Part shown: positions 24,792 through 58,166 of the stretch, piece by piece
How positions within the stretch are numbered: the stretch's first letter is position 1
How the letters are laid out: the number at the start of each line of letters is the position of its first letter
Assembly (NCBI GenBank): GCA_003149635.1
Contig: QCWI01000009.1
Span: forward strand, 62,001-126,000
Direction of reading: 5' to 3'
DNA: 64,000 bases
From: Fluviicola sp. XM-24bin1
Lineage (GTDB): Bacteria > Bacteroidota > Bacteroidia > Flavobacteriales_D > Crocinitomicaceae
Notes under the pieces: model-generated
Told to the model about the DNA's origin: nothing
Databases searched by the model: none
What the model saw: only the letters and a program-made list of their open reading frames with translations
Made by a program: the position numbers and the translations under genes

Positions 24792-25679
24792 GTGAAAACA
24801 AACAGACATCCATTTGGATTTACTTCAGAAGCAATCATTTATCCAGCGCTTTTATTGTTGCTGATGTGGTTGGCGCATTGGGCAGATCATCTGTTCCCTT
24901 TGATGAAGTTTTATCAATACGGCGTGCAACCGGGCGAGGTAAGTTCGCTTTCGGGAGTTTTCTTTATGCCTTTGATCCACTCGAAAGCAGGCTTCGAGCA
25001 TATCATCAATAACTCCGTTCCGACGGCTATTTTGCTGGGAACACTCATCTATTATTACCGACAAGTAGCCTTGCGCGTCTTCGTAATTTCCTGGTTGGCA
25101 ACTGGTATCGGATTGTGGTTGTTCGCAACTAACACTAATAGCTATCACATCGGAATGAGTGGTGTTGTTTACGCATTGGCGAGCTTCCTTTTTGTTTCTG
25201 GAGTTTTGCGAAAATATATGCCTTTGCAAGCTATCTCTTTGTTCGTCGCATTCATTTACGGATCGATGATCTGGGGAATTTTCCCAACCGAATCGCATGT
25301 GTCTTGGGAAGGGCATTTATCGGGAATGGTAACGGGAGTTATTTTAGCGTTCATCTTCCGTAAACTTGGGCCGCAAGCACCAAAATATCAATATGAAATT
25401 GAAAAAGAACTCGGCATTGAACCACCAGATCTAGAGGGCGAATGGCGAGAGCGAGTGCGTTTGGAAAAAGAACGACAGGCGGCCATTGAAGAGTTGAGAC
25501 GTCAACGTGCGGAATATTGGAAGACGGAACAACAAAGAGCAAAAGAAGAAGGTAGAGAACCAAGGCCTCCTCAAAGACAACAACGTCATCTGGGTGAGTC
25601 ACCCGATCCTTTGCGTGTTATTTATACGTACAAGCCGAAAACGCCTCCTACACCTCCGGACGATACAACTGATGAATAG
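24792..25679 (+). CDS. Rhomboid-family intramembrane serine protease
   Basis: A 295-residue protein starting with GTG. It has six hydrophobic segments, with the catalytic dyad Ser123 in HIGMSGVVY and His175 in SWEGHLSG, and the conserved FEHIINN block (about residues 68-74). Rhomboids cut transmembrane segments of other proteins. The C-terminal about 100 residues are soluble, charged and Gln/Arg-rich, ending in a Pro-rich tail, an unusual extension. The 3' end overlaps the convergent phosphatase gene by 32 bases. Confidence 0.9.
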   Translation: MKTNRHPFGFTSEAIIYPALLLLLMWLAHWADHLFPLMKFYQYGVQPGEVSSLSGVFFMPLIHSKAGFEHIINNSVPTAILLGTLIYYYRQVALRVFVISWLATGIGLWLFATNTNSYHIGMSGVVYALASFLFVSGVLRKYMPLQAISLFVAFIYGSMIWGIFPTESHVSWEGHLSGMVTGVILAFIFRKLGPQAPKYQYEIEKELGIEPPDLEGEWRERVRLEKERQAAIEELRRQRAEYWKTEQQRAKEEGREPRPPQRQQRHLGESPDPLRVIYTYKPKTPPTPPDDTTDE

Positions 25680-26112
25680 TTCCGGTTCCACGGGAAGTTT
25701 CTTTCCAGGAATCACAATCGAAGGAAATACACGCGTATTGCCCCGTTCGTAGTTCGATGTCCGAATCGCAGAAATAATTGACCAAATCAGAGATCCCGAA
25801 ATTGTGCCCTATTATCAAGATATCTCCTTCAGCTTCGGTATTCCACAACATGTCCTGCATCGTTTTGTGAGAGCACAAATAGAGCTCATCGAAGAATTGA
25901 GCGTTCGGTAATCCTTCCAAAACTGCGTGTGTTTCTCGCGTACGTTTCGCACTGCTGCACCATACGTGTTCAATGTTCGGAATGGTTTGGAAAAATTGCT
26001 TTAAATCATCGCGTTGTCGCAATCCCTTTTTCATGAGGTAGCGATCGAAATCTTTACCCGTTGGAGAAAATTGTTCGGTTTTCGCGTGTCTTAGTAAGTG
26101 CAATCGGAGCAT
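25648..26112 (-). CDS. SixA-like histidine phosphatase
   Basis: A 154-residue member of the histidine phosphatase branch. The N-terminal LRLHLLRHAKTE carries the RH catalytic pair (Arg8, His9); CSSAKRTRET gives the second Arg and IIGHNFGISDLV the second His. Members such as SixA remove phosphate from phosphohistidine; the substrate here is unknown. It overlaps the rhomboid gene tail-to-tail. Confidence 0.92.
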   Translation of the reverse strand: MLRLHLLRHAKTEQFSPTGKDFDRYLMKKGLRQRDDLKQFFQTIPNIEHVWCSSAKRTRETHAVLEGLPNAQFFDELYLCSHKTMQDMLWNTEAEGDILIIGHNFGISDLVNYFCDSDIELRTGQYACISFDCDSWKETSRGTGTIHQLYRPEV

Positions 26113-26254
26113 AAGCGATTATTTTTTTCGATTTCTATCCAACCAAAAGTGGAAATGGATCGTTTTTGAATATGAAACCAAACGTAAGATAGGCAAACTG
26201 TGCTCCAATTTGTGTAAATTACGTTAGAAAAATTGGGAAAAGAACAGCAACTAC

Positions 26255-26824
26255 ATGGATGTCACGCAAGAAATAATCGAAGCATGCAATCGTGATGACA
26301 GAAAGGCAATTAATCGTTTGTACGAGTATTGCTTTGAGTTGTTGATGCCTGTATGTTTTCGTTACAACAAGAACGAAGAAGACGCGAGGGCTTCTTACAA
26401 CAATGGTTTCATGAAAATCCTGAAAGGGATGAAAAAGGTGGATGAAGGCATCAACTTCAACGCCTGGGCAAAGCGTATCATGGTAAATACGCTGATTGAT
26501 GAATACCGAAAGGACAAAAAGTACAATACGCAGATCACCAAGAGTGATAACGAACGCGAACTGGACTTCTACTCTACCGGACATCAAAACGACGCTGAGA
26601 GCAATTTGGGATATGAGAACATTATGATGCTCGTGAAAGAATTGCCTCATACCACAGCGCGTGTATTCAACCTGTATGTTATTGACGGATACTCGCACAA
26701 AGAAATTGGAGAAATGTTGGAAATGTCAGAAGGTACTTCGAAATGGCACCTTTCTACGGCAAGAAAACAATTGAGAGAACGACTTGAAGATTTGGAGAAT
26801 CGCAACCAGCGATTGGTAATATGA
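26255..26824 (+). CDS. ECF-type RNA polymerase sigma factor
   Basis: A 189-residue sigma-70-family factor with only regions 2 and 4. Region 2 covers about residues 20-92 (LYEYCFELLMPVCFRY...FNAWAKRIMVNTLIDEYRK), and region 4 about 128-180 with a helix-turn-helix (YSHKEIGEMLEMSEGTSKWH). The linker is acidic and polar. The stop overlaps the ATG of the next gene (ATGA), which encodes a probable membrane anti-sigma factor, so the two are co-translated. The upstream region has a TTTG but no clear housekeeping promoter, in keeping with autoregulation. Confidence 0.96.
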   Translation: MDVTQEIIEACNRDDRKAINRLYEYCFELLMPVCFRYNKNEEDARASYNNGFMKILKGMKKVDEGINFNAWAKRIMVNTLIDEYRKDKKYNTQITKSDNERELDFYSTGHQNDAESNLGYENIMMLVKELPHTTARVFNLYVIDGYSHKEIGEMLEMSEGTSKWHLSTARKQLRERLEDLENRNQRLVI

Positions 26825-28533
26825 AACTAACGGACGAACAAATAGACAAACTATTTAGGGATAGTGTGTCGAAGCAATCCTTCGCGTACAAGCCTGAGTA
26901 TTGGGAGGAGTTTTCTGCTTCTCTGTCCGATAGTGCCCCACTGTCTGAGGCTTCGGACGATGATCTGGACGCAGCTTTCCAAGAAGGTGCTGCGAATCAA
27001 TCCTTTGAATACAAACCTGAATTTTGGGAAGCATTTGCTGCTACTCTACCGGATAACACGCCGTTATCACAGGCTCCGGACGATGCATTAGACGCAGCTT
27101 TCCAAAATGATGCCTCGAACATTTCGGTGGATTACAAACCTGAGTTCTGGAGTGAATTCAGTGACGAATTATCATCTATTGCAGCCACTGAAGACGTTAC
27201 AGATGCAGAAGTTGATGCATTGTACCGAGAAGAAGCATCGAAATTATCATTTGTATATCATCCTTCTTATTGGGAAGAGATGGCAGCTTTGTTGCGTCGC
27301 CGTCGCAGACGTCCAGAATTCCTTTGGTTCGGATTGTCAGGTGTATTTGCTACAGCGATTGTTGCGATGCTATTCATTGAACTAAATCCAATGAGTGCTC
27401 CTCAAGCTATTTTGGCATGGGATGTAGTAAATCCAATGGAGCAAGTTGCGAATGGAACTTCGAACAACGTGGCATCAAACAATGCAAATGGATCTGAAAA
27501 CGATGTATTCCAAAATGCGAATGACGTTCAAAACGGAAATAATCCTGAGTTGAACCCAGCCAATAATGGAGCAACACCAAATTACGTGAACAACGGAGGC
27601 AATCCTGTAAATAACGGGAAAAACCCTTCGAACAACGAAGGTGTGGTAAATCCATCTATCGCGAACAATCCAACGCAGGCGAATCCGAACAATGTGCAGA
27701 ACATGCCCCGCATGAACCGCGTGATGCCGAGTTTGGTTATGACAACTGGTTTTGTAGCTCCGACACGCATCGCTGTTACTAATAGAAATGCGAATGCAAC
27801 AAACGATATCACTTTGAATCCGTTATCGACGCGACCTCTTGGAAACTTGACGACCTTTAATAATACGTTGGCAGATGCTTATTCAGCGTTACCGCAGTAC
27901 CGAGGTGGTTTGATGACATCGATGTATGTACAAGGTCTTGGAGGAATTTCTCAATCGTTGATTACTCCTTCTGATGCCGTTGGTACTTCGTATGGATTTG
28001 GTTTGGGAATTCAAACGCATGTACGCAATTGGACATTCAATCTTGGATCCAACTTGATCATTGAGAACTTTAGCGATCTTGAATTGACACGTGTGGCAAA
28101 ACAATACGTTGGATTCAGCTCAAGCATCAGTACGCAAGACCTTCGTTACAAAAACTTGTATACGGTAGAATTAGATCTTGGATTTGGATACAACTTTGGA
28201 AGACATCAATTCCGCATGGGAATCCGTCCTTCATATACGTACAACGCACGCGTTGATTACGCGGAAACAAACGTGTACAATAATCACGGAGAAAACATCC
28301 AAACAAGTGAGATCAATCAAAGCCAATACGGATACCTTGAGGCATTGCAACTGTTCGGGTTGAAGCCGACTATTGGTTACGCGTTCAACTTCCCATCTAA
28401 CTGGACGTTAGGATTTAACATTGGAACTGAATTAAGACCGTCTATCAATGAGGACTTCATTTCTGGCGTAAATAATCGCCTACCTTTCGATGGACAATTG
28501 TATATTCGCAGAACTTTGAACTTTACTAAATGA
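26821..28533 (+). CDS. Putative dual-membrane-spanning anti-sigma factor
   Basis: A 570-residue protein with four parts. Residues 4-167 are cytoplasmic and consist of four repeats of exactly 41 residues, each with a D-x3-F...SF-x-YKPE[FY]W-x-EF core. An Arg run (RRRRRR, about 159-164) precedes a single transmembrane helix (about 167-188). Residues 205-300 are Asn/Pro-rich and probably disordered. From about 355 to the end there are alternating amphipathic strands (SYGFGLGIQTHVRNWTFNLG, YTVELDLGFGYNFGRHQFRM) that look like an 8-stranded outer-membrane barrel. The layout matches Dma anti-sigma factors described in Bacteroides thetaiotaomicron. It overlaps the sigma gene (ATGA) and the next lipoprotein gene (ATGA). 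Confidence 0.8.
   Translation: MKLTDEQIDKLFRDSVSKQSFAYKPEYWEEFSASLSDSAPLSEASDDDLDAAFQEGAANQSFEYKPEFWEAFAATLPDNTPLSQAPDDALDAAFQNDASNISVDYKPEFWSEFSDELSSIAATEDVTDAEVDALYREEASKLSFVYHPSYWEEMAALLRRRRRRPEFLWFGLSGVFATAIVAMLFIELNPMSAPQAILAWDVVNPMEQVANGTSNNVASNNANGSENDVFQNANDVQNGNNPELNPANNGATPNYVNNGGNPVNNGKNPSNNEGVVNPSIANNPTQANPNNVQNMPRMNRVMPSLVMTTGFVAPTRIAVTNRNANATNDITLNPLSTRPLGNLTTFNNTLADAYSALPQYRGGLMTSMYVQGLGGISQSLITPSDAVGTSYGFGLGIQTHVRNWTFNLGSNLIIENFSDLELTRVAKQYVGFSSSISTQDLRYKNLYTVELDLGFGYNFGRHQFRMGIRPSYTYNARVDYAETNVYNNHGENIQTSEINQSQYGYLEALQLFGLKPTIGYAFNFPSNWTLGFNIGTELRPSINEDFISGVNNRLPFDGQLYIRRTLNFTK
26830..27321 (+). repeat. Four 41-codon repeats in the anti-sigma gene
   Basis: The YKPE[FY]W core (YHPSYW in the last copy) starts at residues 23, 64, 105 and 146, an exact 41-residue (123-base) period. 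Copies 2 and 3 are most alike (DAAFQ...YKPEFW); copy 4, next to the membrane, has diverged most. Confidence 0.92.
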
Positions 28534-29612
28534 AACAACTTACCTACATATCATCTTGTGCGCTTGTATTGAGCTTGCTTGTTCTGGTAGGTTGTCAGAA
28601 ACAAGAACTTCCTTACGAGGATTCAAACACTCCTATTTTTGAAGTACGCGGTACCATCGGAAACGAAGAGTTGGTGGTAGTTGCTGGTGATAACAACGCC
28701 TACATGTACACCTCAACAAAATTGGTAAATGGTGTTCGTGTTTTCACAGGAGAATTAAGCGACGGTGAAACGTCTATTGAGTTCGGATTGTTCGACGGAA
28801 ATATTGATACTCCAAATAGTACTCCTGAAGTTGACTTACAGAACGTAGTCTTGGAATTTGCCCGAAGATATCAAGATCCACTAGCGATTTTGGATATGGC
28901 GAGCATCGTTCCAAATCAAAATGGAACCCACGTAGAATGGTACATCAATGGTTCATTCGCTGGTTCTGGTGAGATTGCGATCTACGAGCCAGGGAAATAC
29001 GATGTTTGTGCTCACGTGACATTCTTGACGGGTCAGACAGAACAATTGTGTGATGAAATCATCTTAGGATATCAGCGCAATGCAAACTGCAACATTGATC
29101 TTAGTTTAGGACAAAACGCTATCGATGCAGATATCAATCCGAATGGAGAACCTGTTCAGAATGTAGAATGGTTCCTAAACGATTCATCGATTGCTACAGG
29201 AATGAGTTTGAACTATCCTATTACTTATGGGATTGGAAACAAACTCACGGCAAAAGTGACATTCGCTAACGGTGTGGTTCGTGAAAAATCATGCTTCATC
29301 GATGGAACGGATTCTTCTCAGTGGATTTCAGACTTCTCGGTATTCGAGTATGGTTCTACACCATCGATTACACCTCAAGATTACCAGGCACGCTTGATCA
29401 TTCAAAAGGATGGTAAAACGTATCGATCGATGCAGGCGGATAACGAAGGATCGACTATTACTTTACTCTCGTTAGAGCCTTACGAGGACAACGCGAATGG
29501 TAATAGCACCTATAAGGCAGTACTCCAAATCGAAGGAGTTGTGATGGAAATGAGTACGGAGAAAATGATTCCTGTGAATTTCACAACTGCAATTGGAGTT
29601 GAGGTTCCTTAA
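28530..29612 (+). CDS. Lipoprotein encoded with sigma/anti-sigma pair
   Basis: A 360-residue lipoprotein (signal ends VLVGC, Cys22). The mature part has two PKD/Ig-like modules in the middle (VEWYINGSFAGSGEIAIYEP and VEWFLNDSSIATGMSLNYPI, each followed by YDVCAHVTF- or LTAKVTFA-type strands and a Cys). No enzyme motif is visible. The ATGA overlap with the anti-sigma gene implies coupled translation. It may be a surface or periplasmic partner of the barrel domain; that is inference. Confidence 0.8.
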   Translation: MKQLTYISSCALVLSLLVLVGCQKQELPYEDSNTPIFEVRGTIGNEELVVVAGDNNAYMYTSTKLVNGVRVFTGELSDGETSIEFGLFDGNIDTPNSTPEVDLQNVVLEFARRYQDPLAILDMASIVPNQNGTHVEWYINGSFAGSGEIAIYEPGKYDVCAHVTFLTGQTEQLCDEIILGYQRNANCNIDLSLGQNAIDADINPNGEPVQNVEWFLNDSSIATGMSLNYPITYGIGNKLTAKVTFANGVVREKSCFIDGTDSSQWISDFSVFEYGSTPSITPQDYQARLIIQKDGKTYRSMQADNEGSTITLLSLEPYEDNANGNSTYKAVLQIEGVVMEMSTEKMIPVNFTTAIGVEVP

Positions 29613-29651: not shown

Positions 29652-30737
29652 ATGAGATTCCTTCTAGCCCTATTAATTCTACCCACAATTGGATTTGCCC
29701 AAATTACCGTTACCGAAGCTGATTTTGGTAACGCTGGTGATACGGCACGAATGAGTTCAACTACCGATTTTACGGTAGATTACACTTCGACGGGTACTAA
29801 CTTTTCATGGGACTACTCCTCCTTTTTAGCCGAAAGTCAAACGCTTTTGCAATTCAACGGGATGTCAGGAGTCTCTCCATTGGTTGAGTTTCTTTTTGGA
29901 AGTTTTGCCCCTTCCACATATCAAGCAGATTACTTCGCAGAATTCGACGACCTTCCAATCGATCAATTGGATCAGTTGTTACCGGTGTATATTTCGAACT
30001 TATTACAATTCACGAAGATTACCGCAGATTCTGTTTCATCCATTGGAATTTCAATCGATGTGGATGGAAACCAAATCCCTTTCCGCTCCGACTTAATTGA
30101 AAAGCGATACGCATTGCCTATGAACTTCGGAGATAGCTGGACAGGAGTTGGATTCACTGAGATGGATTTGAATCCATTTGCGGATATTATTTGGCGTCAG
30201 AATCGTACCAGAACATCTGTTGTAGACGGATGGGGAACGATTACTCTCCCGATGGGCACATTCGATGTATTGCGTGTGAAGCACACCATTGAAGAAAACG
30301 ACTCACTGTATCAAGATTTGCTCGGAACCGGAAATCCATCATGGTTCGGATTGGACTTACCAACTGCGCATATCTACGAGTGGATCACTAATGGAGAAAA
30401 GGAAGTAGTTCTTCGCATTGAAACTTCTGAAATTGGTGGGTTTGAGACGGTAACTAATATCGAATACCGAGATACTTACGATCCACTTTTGGCCTCCGTA
30501 AACAACTTGAATTGGATCGAAGCTTCCGTATATCCGAATCCTGCTTCAAATGAATTGCACGTGGACATAGAGACGACACGATTAGATTATTCTCTTGTCG
30601 ATGTCAACGGAGCGATTTTAAGAATTGGTTCGCTTTCAAAGCCTACTATCGATATTTCAAATCTTACTCCAGGTCAATACATCCTTCTAGGACAAACTGA
30701 TCAGGGAACCTTGCGCGTTCCATTCATTAAGGAGTAA
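29652..30737 (+). CDS. Secreted protein with type A T9SS sorting domain
   Basis: A protein of 361 residues with signal peptide MRFLLALLILPTIGFAQ. ATG 29652 is preferred over the GTG six codons upstream. The body is beta-rich with no enzyme motif that I recognise. The last about 75 residues form a type A sorting domain (SVYPNPASNELHVDIE ... LTPGQYILLG), which targets proteins to T9SS and the cell surface. It is 39 bases downstream of the lipoprotein gene, so it may belong to the sigma operon. Confidence 0.87.
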   Translation: MRFLLALLILPTIGFAQITVTEADFGNAGDTARMSSTTDFTVDYTSTGTNFSWDYSSFLAESQTLLQFNGMSGVSPLVEFLFGSFAPSTYQADYFAEFDDLPIDQLDQLLPVYISNLLQFTKITADSVSSIGISIDVDGNQIPFRSDLIEKRYALPMNFGDSWTGVGFTEMDLNPFADIIWRQNRTRTSVVDGWGTITLPMGTFDVLRVKHTIEENDSLYQDLLGTGNPSWFGLDLPTAHIYEWITNGEKEVVLRIETSEIGGFETVTNIEYRDTYDPLLASVNNLNWIEASVYPNPASNELHVDIETTRLDYSLVDVNGAILRIGSLSKPTIDISNLTPGQYILLGQTDQGTLRVPFIKE

Positions 30738-30753: not shown

Positions 30754-31130
30754 GAGGCAAATCAGTCTATCGCGACAAACTTCGGTTTGGCGAGGAAAGT
30801 CCGGACAGCATAGAGCAGCGTACTTCCTAACGGGAAGGTATTCTGATTTCATCGGGATAACAGCCAGTGCCACAGAAAAGAAACCGCCTTTCGGGGTAAG
30901 GGTGAAAAGGTGGGGTAAGAGCCTACCGGATGTTTGGTGACAAACGTTGCAAGGTAAACCTTACGCGCTGAAAGATCATGTAAACCACGAACTTGAGGTA
31001 GCTCGCTTCAGTTCTTCGGATGTCGTGGAGGGTAGATCGTTAGAGGTTATCGGTGACGGTAACTCCAGATAAATGATAGACACTACGCAATTTGCGTTAG
31101 CACAGAATCCGGCTTATGATTTGCCTCTTT
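30754..31130 (+). ncRNA. rnpB: RNase P RNA (M1-type)
   Basis: This is the catalytic RNA that removes 5' leaders from tRNA precursors. Conserved blocks appear in order: GAGGAAAGTCCGGAC near the 5' end, ACAGCCAGTGCCACAGAAA, GGGTAAGGGTGAAAAGGTG, GGTAAGAGCCTACCG, GCAAGGTAAACC, AGATAAATGATAG and ACAGAATCCGGCTTAT. GAGGCAAATC (30754-30763) pairs with GATTTGCCTC (31118-31127) to close the molecule, followed by a T-run. The 3' end overlaps the end of an antisense coding region. Confidence 0.96.
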
Positions 31131-31604
31131 TTTCTTCTCTTTAGCAACCGCTTTCATCTTTCTGGTTTCCGCGATTTCGTCTTTGATTACTTGTTCAGGA
31201 GACAATTCTTGCGGCCTGGTGAACACAAAGAAACGGGATAATCCGCCGTCGATTTTGTAACGAATGCGTGTGAGCTGCAAACCTAAGAAAGCGCTACTCT
31301 TCACTTCACGAATACTTCCTACAGGGACCACGACATTAATATCACTCATTGTTTTCATGATGATATTACCGGCTTTCAAACTCACCGAACGTGCGTTCTT
31401 CCAGAAAAATCGAATTAATAAAAGACCTGTGATTCCAATTCCAGCAACGATTCCAAGAGAAGGAAAAGTGATTCCTAAGGCTAGGAGAGTAAATCCGCAA
31501 GCTACAGCGCTCAAGCCTGCCAAAAGCATACAAAAGCCTCTCATCCTCTTAAGGTAGGATTTAGATGTAATGTAGACGCGTTTCTTTTTCGTATAGTGTT
31601 CCAT
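31083..31604 (-). CDS. Small membrane protein overlapping rnpB 3' end
   Basis: A 173-residue protein with two adjacent transmembrane segments (about residues 24-45 and 49-67), then a soluble beta-rich part (VSLKAGNIIMKTMSDINVVV) resembling a PH-like or bPH fold, and a charged Lys/Glu-rich tail. I do not recognise a family. The last about 16 codons (EANHKPDSVLTQIA) are read from the strand opposite the rnpB 3' end, so either this tail tolerates whatever rnpB dictates or the real reading frame is under RNA constraint. Confidence 0.72.
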   Translation of the reverse strand: MEHYTKKKRVYITSKSYLKRMRGFCMLLAGLSAVACGFTLLALGITFPSLGIVAGIGITGLLLIRFFWKNARSVSLKAGNIIMKTMSDINVVVPVGSIREVKSSAFLGLQLTRIRYKIDGGLSRFFVFTRPQELSPEQVIKDEIAETRKMKAVAKEKKKEANHKPDSVLTQIA

Positions 31605-58033: not shown

Positions 58034-58166
58034 CTCCCGATAACCATCGGGATTCACCCAACGGATTTGCGTAACCTTTCGTTATTTTTTTCGTAGCTTA
58101 GCTGTAACTAATGTTGCGGTCTGTTTGTTACACTACTATAGACTAATACAATTAAAACTGCGGATC

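Follow-up and report, generated by a model that had tools for sequence, protein, structure and literature searches.

Organization of the locus

The window, i.e. the whole stretch of 64,000 nucleotides analyzed here, was located on contig 9 of the 3.63-Mb genome of Fluviicola sp. XM-24bin1. It carries the following features (window positions, strand, description and basis).

26139..26164, +: predicted ECF-type promoter of the operon, CCAACC-N16-CGTT (conserved upstream pattern)
26255..26824, +: ECF sigma factor, 189 aa (Pfam; NCBIfam TIGR02937)
26821..28533, +: Dma-type trans-envelope protein, predicted anti-sigma, 570 aa (predicted architecture; beside the sigma gene in 71 of the best 80 loci)
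26833..26928, +: module R1, aa 5-36, two-helix hairpin (profile, structure prediction)
26956..27051, +: module R2, aa 46-77 (profile, structure prediction)
27079..27180, +: module R3, aa 87-120 (profile, structure prediction)
27202..27297, +: module R4, aa 128-159, membrane-proximal (profile, structure prediction)
27319..27381, +: inner-membrane helix, aa 167-187, with an Arg-rich run before it (structure prediction; hydropathy)
27385..27858, +: disordered Asn/Pro-rich periplasmic tether, aa 189-346 (low pLDDT)
27913..28518, +: 8-stranded outer-membrane barrel, aa 365-566 (predicted structure)
28530..29612, +: lipoprotein, 360 aa; aa 183-261 form a PKD/Ig-like domain
29652..30737, +: T9SS-sorted secreted protein, 361 aa (PF18962, E 2.8e-8; TIGR04183); the ORF list begins this gene at GTG 29634

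Two ATGA overlaps couple the sigma gene, the gene of the 570-residue protein and the lipoprotein gene, and the reading frames and both overlaps are as described in the initial annotation of this DNA. The fourth gene, encoding the predicted T9SS-secreted protein, had been overlooked, as had the predicted ECF-type promoter upstream of the sigma gene and the differing module number among related proteins. Upstream of the operon, a rhomboid-family gene (24792-25679, + strand; PF01694, E 1.2e-13) and a histidine-phosphatase-family gene (25648-26112, − strand; Pfam) were found. Immediately behind the operon lies the class A RNase P RNA (30754-31131; RF00010, 259.9 bits), which is among the most conserved stretches across the three nearest genomes.

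For comparison, named genomes were scanned with 24 sigma orthologues and the best 80 loci were retained. The sigma gene is followed by a Dma ORF in 71 of these; among the remaining nine, eight contigs stop 323-741 nt past the sigma gene and one locus (L176) has its Dma gene in two ORFs. L176 and the contig-end loci were left out of the Dma locus counts, and L153, in which the Dma gene is cut and masked, was excluded from the Dma alignment and from the tree labels. An ATGA overlap between the sigma and Dma genes is present in 50/71 loci. The three-gene order that the initial annotation had proposed seeking in relatives recurs there, the lipoprotein gene following the Dma gene in 59 of the 71 loci, and a T9SS homologue lies at most 200 nt away (E <1e-30) in 58. 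Gene order as computed makes this a conserved four-gene operon. The observation in the initial annotation is confirmed. A histidine-phosphatase homologue was present anywhere in 71 of the best 80 loci, ending within 1500 nt upstream of the sigma gene in 69; for the rhomboid homologue these numbers were 47 and 44.

The sigma subfamily was found in 120/395 genomes of the phylum at E 1e-25, and the 570-residue protein was detected in 64/150 genomes at E 1e-3 in a family-wide search. Among the best 80 loci, the sigma protein is 98% and 95% identical to that of its two nearest genomes. In NCBIfam it matched TIGR02937, and among the 25 models listed no finer one scored above its cut-off. The genome has several related pairs of a sigma factor and a one-helix protein. 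In one of these (L182; G000:C5:252000-256000), the N-terminus of the one-helix protein resembles two module copies, and its C-terminus is not barrel-like by eye; further pairs are found at L181, L183, L184 and L192. Four loci labelled Glaciecola, Chryseobacterium gleum or Chitinophaga pinensis (L149, L143, L124 and L131) group with Crocinitomicaceae sequences in the sigma tree, and their record labels are probably wrong.

Predicted architecture of the 570-residue protein

The initial annotation described a cytoplasmic part, one membrane helix, an Asn/Pro-rich linker and a C-terminal part resembling a short barrel, and all four were predicted here. Behind the cytoplasmic N-terminal part, a single helix is predicted at residues 167-187 (hydropathy peak of 2.17 from residue 168). 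The tether holds 40 Asn and 16 Pro among its 158 residues, with pLDDT <50 over residues 189-261 and 264-329. Structure prediction, which had been put forward as the check on the barrel, returned an 8-stranded, OmpA/NspA-like C-terminal barrel, and OMP_b-brl was matched by 17/71 aligned proteins. The window protein itself scored above cut-off with nothing in Pfam or NCBIfam, and PDB sequence searches with the Dma, module and lipoprotein profiles gave no usable relative. From these predictions we infer that helix 167-187 would hold the protein in the inner membrane while the barrel would fix it in the outer membrane. As this predicted architecture equals the published Dma anti-sigma architecture, proteins of this kind are already known.

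Out of 30 loci with the sigma subfamily, the downstream protein was read at 18, the window among them. At the 17 non-window loci, which come from other families, this protein has one helix between a short N-terminus and a linker. The helix begins at residues 33-64, so that the N-terminal part is short, like that of single-module proteins. Of the 17, four are only 217-259 aa long, which leaves no space for a barrel.

In many membrane anti-sigma factors, such as RseA and FecR-type proteins, the signal is released by regulated proteolysis. Release here could likewise proceed by cleavage of the tether and the membrane helix instead of direct mechanical coupling, which we regard as tenable but somewhat improbable. 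A disordered tether of 158 residues would be a good protease target, and the rhomboid-family gene lies close upstream in the window and in many of the best loci. However, a tether of an estimated 103-257 residues is found in 71/71 proteins measured, as a physical link would need, and among the four operon proteins no protease was recognised with Pfam or NCBIfam.

Tandem modules in the cytoplasmic part

The N-terminal part of the window protein is predicted to consist of four two-helix modules. With a 32-residue profile, module copies were counted in 72 proteins, the window protein included: 51 have a single copy, 3 have three, 6 have four and 11 have five (one of the five matches being a short partial one), while the cut and masked L153 has none. 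The cytoplasmic length falls into two separate classes, 42-54 residues in single-module and 128-170 in multi-module proteins. In the 51 single-module proteins the region before the membrane helix is made up of the module. Since it is their sole cytoplasmic part, the module must bind sigma there, if cytoplasmic sigma binding occurs.

A profile built from 49 single-copy proteins alone recovers all four window copies, with R1 at 52.3, R4 at 39.6 and R3, the lowest, at 22.6 bits. Crocinitomix-type copies are recovered more weakly by this profile, several scoring 3-10 bits vs 7.4-11.7 for the best decoys; as several of these matches are no better than decoys, those arrays are less certain outside the iterative profile. 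A PDB sequence search with the modules turned up no anti-sigma factor of solved structure (best E 0.48, unrelated).

All four window modules are under purifying selection. Their pN is 0.02-0.12 when the window is compared with L100 and L101, and up to 0.16 for L100 vs L101; values are 0.015-0.025 for sigma, 0.35-0.40 for the linker and 0.16-0.35 for the barrel. Module constraint hence exceeds that of linker and barrel and is below that of sigma in most comparisons. In the same window comparisons, the region of R1 (window 26821-26952) shows a pS of only 0.13-0.27, vs 0.55-0.81 for R2-R4 and 0.37-0.44 for sigma, which might reflect constraint on the DNA itself.

In the sigma tree, the multi-copy label falls on separate branches; three changes are needed, at least two of which are forced by well-supported branches. 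The two multi-copy clades stand apart, a pattern that allows either one gain with losses or several gains.

These data bear on how many modules hold sigma. A single module might bind it, probably the membrane-proximal R4 or else R1, with the rest serving as a stalk or binding further sigma factors encoded in the genome, which has several related sigma/one-helix pairs. R1 and R4 score higher than R3 against the single-copy profile, and R3 is also the least constrained of the four vs L100 (pN 0.12). Nevertheless, the module pattern is preserved in each of the four copies, all of which are predicted to form hairpins and are under purifying selection, and multi-copy arrays persist throughout the separate Crocinitomix-like clade; we consider binding by a single module rather doubtful. 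A more far-reaching reading is that an outer-membrane-anchored sensor with 3-5 sigma-binding modules may store several sigma factors, may release them in a graded or threshold manner, and carries an array that apparently arose more than once in the Crocinitomicaceae. Taken together, these points are put forward tentatively, at a little under an even chance.

Lipoprotein and T9SS-sorted protein

Of the 59 lipoproteins encoded behind the Dma gene, 51 matched the window lipoprotein by BLAST, and eight, all from Crocinitomix-like loci, were assigned by a lipoprotein-type N-terminus and alignment. The lipoprotein gene is missing, with the T9SS gene directly behind the Dma gene, in 10/71 loci, six of which are labelled Fluviicola; of the last two loci, L118 has a broken lipoprotein gene and L172 reaches the contig end. 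The window lipoprotein matched nothing above cut-off in Pfam and NCBIfam, and DUF4943, at E 0.01, was matched by none of 60 members of the operon lipoprotein family. Position K24 is nearly invariant in the alignment, and the window reads C-Q-K-Q-E. The surface lipoprotein signal LES of Bacteroidota is given, in the available part of PMC5080379, as K-(D/E)2, in which acidic residues come after a Lys at +3; the full motif was seen in 6 rows by a pattern search that misplaced some cysteines, that of the window row included, so that the alignment is relied on here. In the 13 loci outside the 58 with a close T9SS homologue, it is farther or weaker in four and without match in nine, three of which have <2.2 kb of contig left.

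The lipoprotein and the T9SS protein could be outputs of the operon, acting in repair or surface remodelling, and not parts of the sensor; to us the chances of this are evenly balanced. In line with outputs, the lipoprotein is absent from the 10 loci in which sigma, Dma and T9SS genes stay, and the dma2-operon neighbours of Bacteroides thetaiotaomicron are strongly induced, yet dispensable for the vesiculation phenotype (PMC13088901, available part). Weakly against it, outputs alone would not require the gene order that is preserved in most loci.

Promoter and candidate targets

ECF promoters typically have AAC in the −35 and CGT in the −10 element. The pattern CCAAC-N17-CGTT was found upstream of the sigma gene in 68/78 regions from the best 80 loci, at 82-162 nt ahead of the assumed start; in one block-shuffled control the best pattern reached 7. 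Five more regions carry CGTC, and with the last base left free CCAAC-N17-CGT is present in 76/78. Within the window, a second CCAAC-N17-CGTT match lies at 58058-58083 (+ strand).

A relaxed site, CCAAC-N16-18-CGT[TCA], was searched before orthologues within the genus. It stands 32-38 nt before the gene of a 526-aa predicted lipoprotein in 27/30 orthologues, and a second ECF gene (198 aa) has it 164-198 nt upstream in 18/30; the strict form is present in 14/30 and 15/30, respectively. The shuffled control with 0.15 and 0 expected belongs to an earlier count of target sites at fixed start offsets. For the 526-aa lipoprotein gene, the site occurs in 25/26 genomes with the sigma gene and in 2/4 without a detected one, of which G546 is only 79% complete. 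For the second ECF gene, 18/27 genomes with sigma have the site (9/27 do not) and 0/3 without. Three genomes of the same genus (G018, G120 and G544; 91-99% completeness) have no window-type sigma, and their second ECF gene is not preceded by the site either.

CCAACC-N16-CGTT might be read by another sigma factor, e.g. the 198-aa ECF that carries it in 18 of 30 orthologues, which would make the sigma/Dma operon a cascade target and not autoregulated. This is unlikely. Where the 198-aa ECF is kept but the window-type sigma is absent, the ECF site is gone in 3/3 genomes (small numbers), two of which also have no site before the 526-aa lipoprotein gene, and the site is near-universal before window-type sigma genes.

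A genome-wide promoter scan was rejected as a regulon finder, its matches being barely above the reversed-pattern control (46 vs 34 in the own genome, 69 vs 50 in five genomes together). The regulon is therefore drawn from conservation, and our claims are limited to conserved sites. A third candidate target, a TPR protein, was discarded, the site being present in only 3/24 homologous loci, the three nearest.

Comparison with known systems

Cell-surface signalling of the FecR/TonB-receptor kind relies on separate outer- and inner-membrane proteins. The window system resembles it in that an outer-membrane event would reach an ECF sigma factor; it differs in that one protein is predicted to span both membranes.

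Dma1 and Dma2 of B. thetaiotaomicron, which share the design predicted here, act on their sigma factors, and dma2 stands in an operon with das2 and BT_1557 (PMC13088901, as far as available). The Dma1/Das1 and Dma2/Das2 pairs share with the window an N-terminal anti-sigma part, one helix, a long disordered tether, a C-terminal barrel and an adjoining ECF sigma. The comparison with Dma1 and Dma2 was made by described design; the window protein has four N-terminal modules. The published Dma definition asks for a neighbouring sigma of group ECF21; the window neighbour is an ECF sigma by Pfam and TIGR02937. According to the same partial text (PMC13088901), Dma3 is a family member with a sigma domain at its own N-terminus, whereas the window sigma is a separate gene. 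Compared with the three-gene dma2 operon, the window has another lipoprotein family and a T9SS protein downstream, and a promoter element was found.

In CnrY, a class II anti-sigma factor (CnrH/CnrY), two short helices per binding unit suffice (PMC7406223, available part). The window modules are alike in having two predicted helices each and unlike in showing no sequence match to CnrY, which has one binding unit as described there.

The initial annotation had called this version undescribed. Its three-gene operon has a precedent in dma2/das2/BT_1557 (PMC13088901, available part). A literature search, mostly below full text and excluding the founding Dma paper (PNAS 2024) and the ECF classification paper, returned no description of such a tandem array or of the window operon. 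Within the known Dma kind, the window system is a variant marked by its tandem modules, by another conserved pair of genes downstream and by a defined promoter.

Proposed mechanism

Our account is that of an autoregulated four-gene envelope-signalling operon round a Dma-type anti-sigma factor, a trans-envelope switch whose multivalent array would hold sigma, and we think it probable. The cytoplasmic array of four two-helix modules would hold sigma, and each module would probably be able to bind one sigma, by analogy with the two helices of CnrY, which clamp regions 4 and 2 of CnrH. Sigma binding by the modules is suggested by their being the sole cytoplasmic part in single-copy relatives, by the Dma design and by the sufficiency of a two-helix unit in CnrY. 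The signal would start with an outer-membrane change that affects either the barrel or a partner, for instance the lipoprotein or the T9SS-exported protein encoded in the operon; it would travel along the disordered tether and free sigma directly or by cleavage. Freed sigma would then transcribe from CCAACC-N16-CGT[T/C] promoters, its putative targets being its own operon, the 526-aa lipoprotein gene and, in many species, the second ECF sigma gene. With modules outnumbering sigma copies per protein, the switch would be held firmly off, and sigma would be released stepwise or with a threshold. One sigma per module, the route of release, and sensing by the lipoprotein or the T9SS protein are steps that we infer. 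Several points count against the account as a whole: the modules match no solved anti-sigma factor in sequence, the promoter pattern is little enriched genome-wide over the reversed control, the 526-aa lipoprotein gene retains its site in 2/4 genomes without a detected sigma, and the four outgroup proteins of 217-259 aa have no space for a barrel. In addition, the product of the second ECF gene, which has the site itself but lacks it in 9/27 genomes with sigma, could be the factor that really reads it.

The interpretation in the initial annotation, in which outer-membrane events pass directly to sigma with no protease cascade, is supported in part, namely in its Dma design (helix, disordered tether, C-terminal barrel, adjoining ECF sigma); for the release of sigma, both routes are kept here, and the role it suggested for the lipoprotein, as a lid or ligand sensor, stands as a conjecture.

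If each module holds sigma, anti-sigma stoichiometry would have been tuned by evolution, and natural versions with 1, 3, 4 and 5 module hits are at hand for comparison. The promoter element and the two conserved candidate targets offer a ready reporter for what a Dma barrel senses, a question left open in the available part of PMC13088901. If the account is true, Dma-type signalling would reach from gut Bacteroides to the Crocinitomicaceae, where it would be linked to a T9SS-sorted protein.
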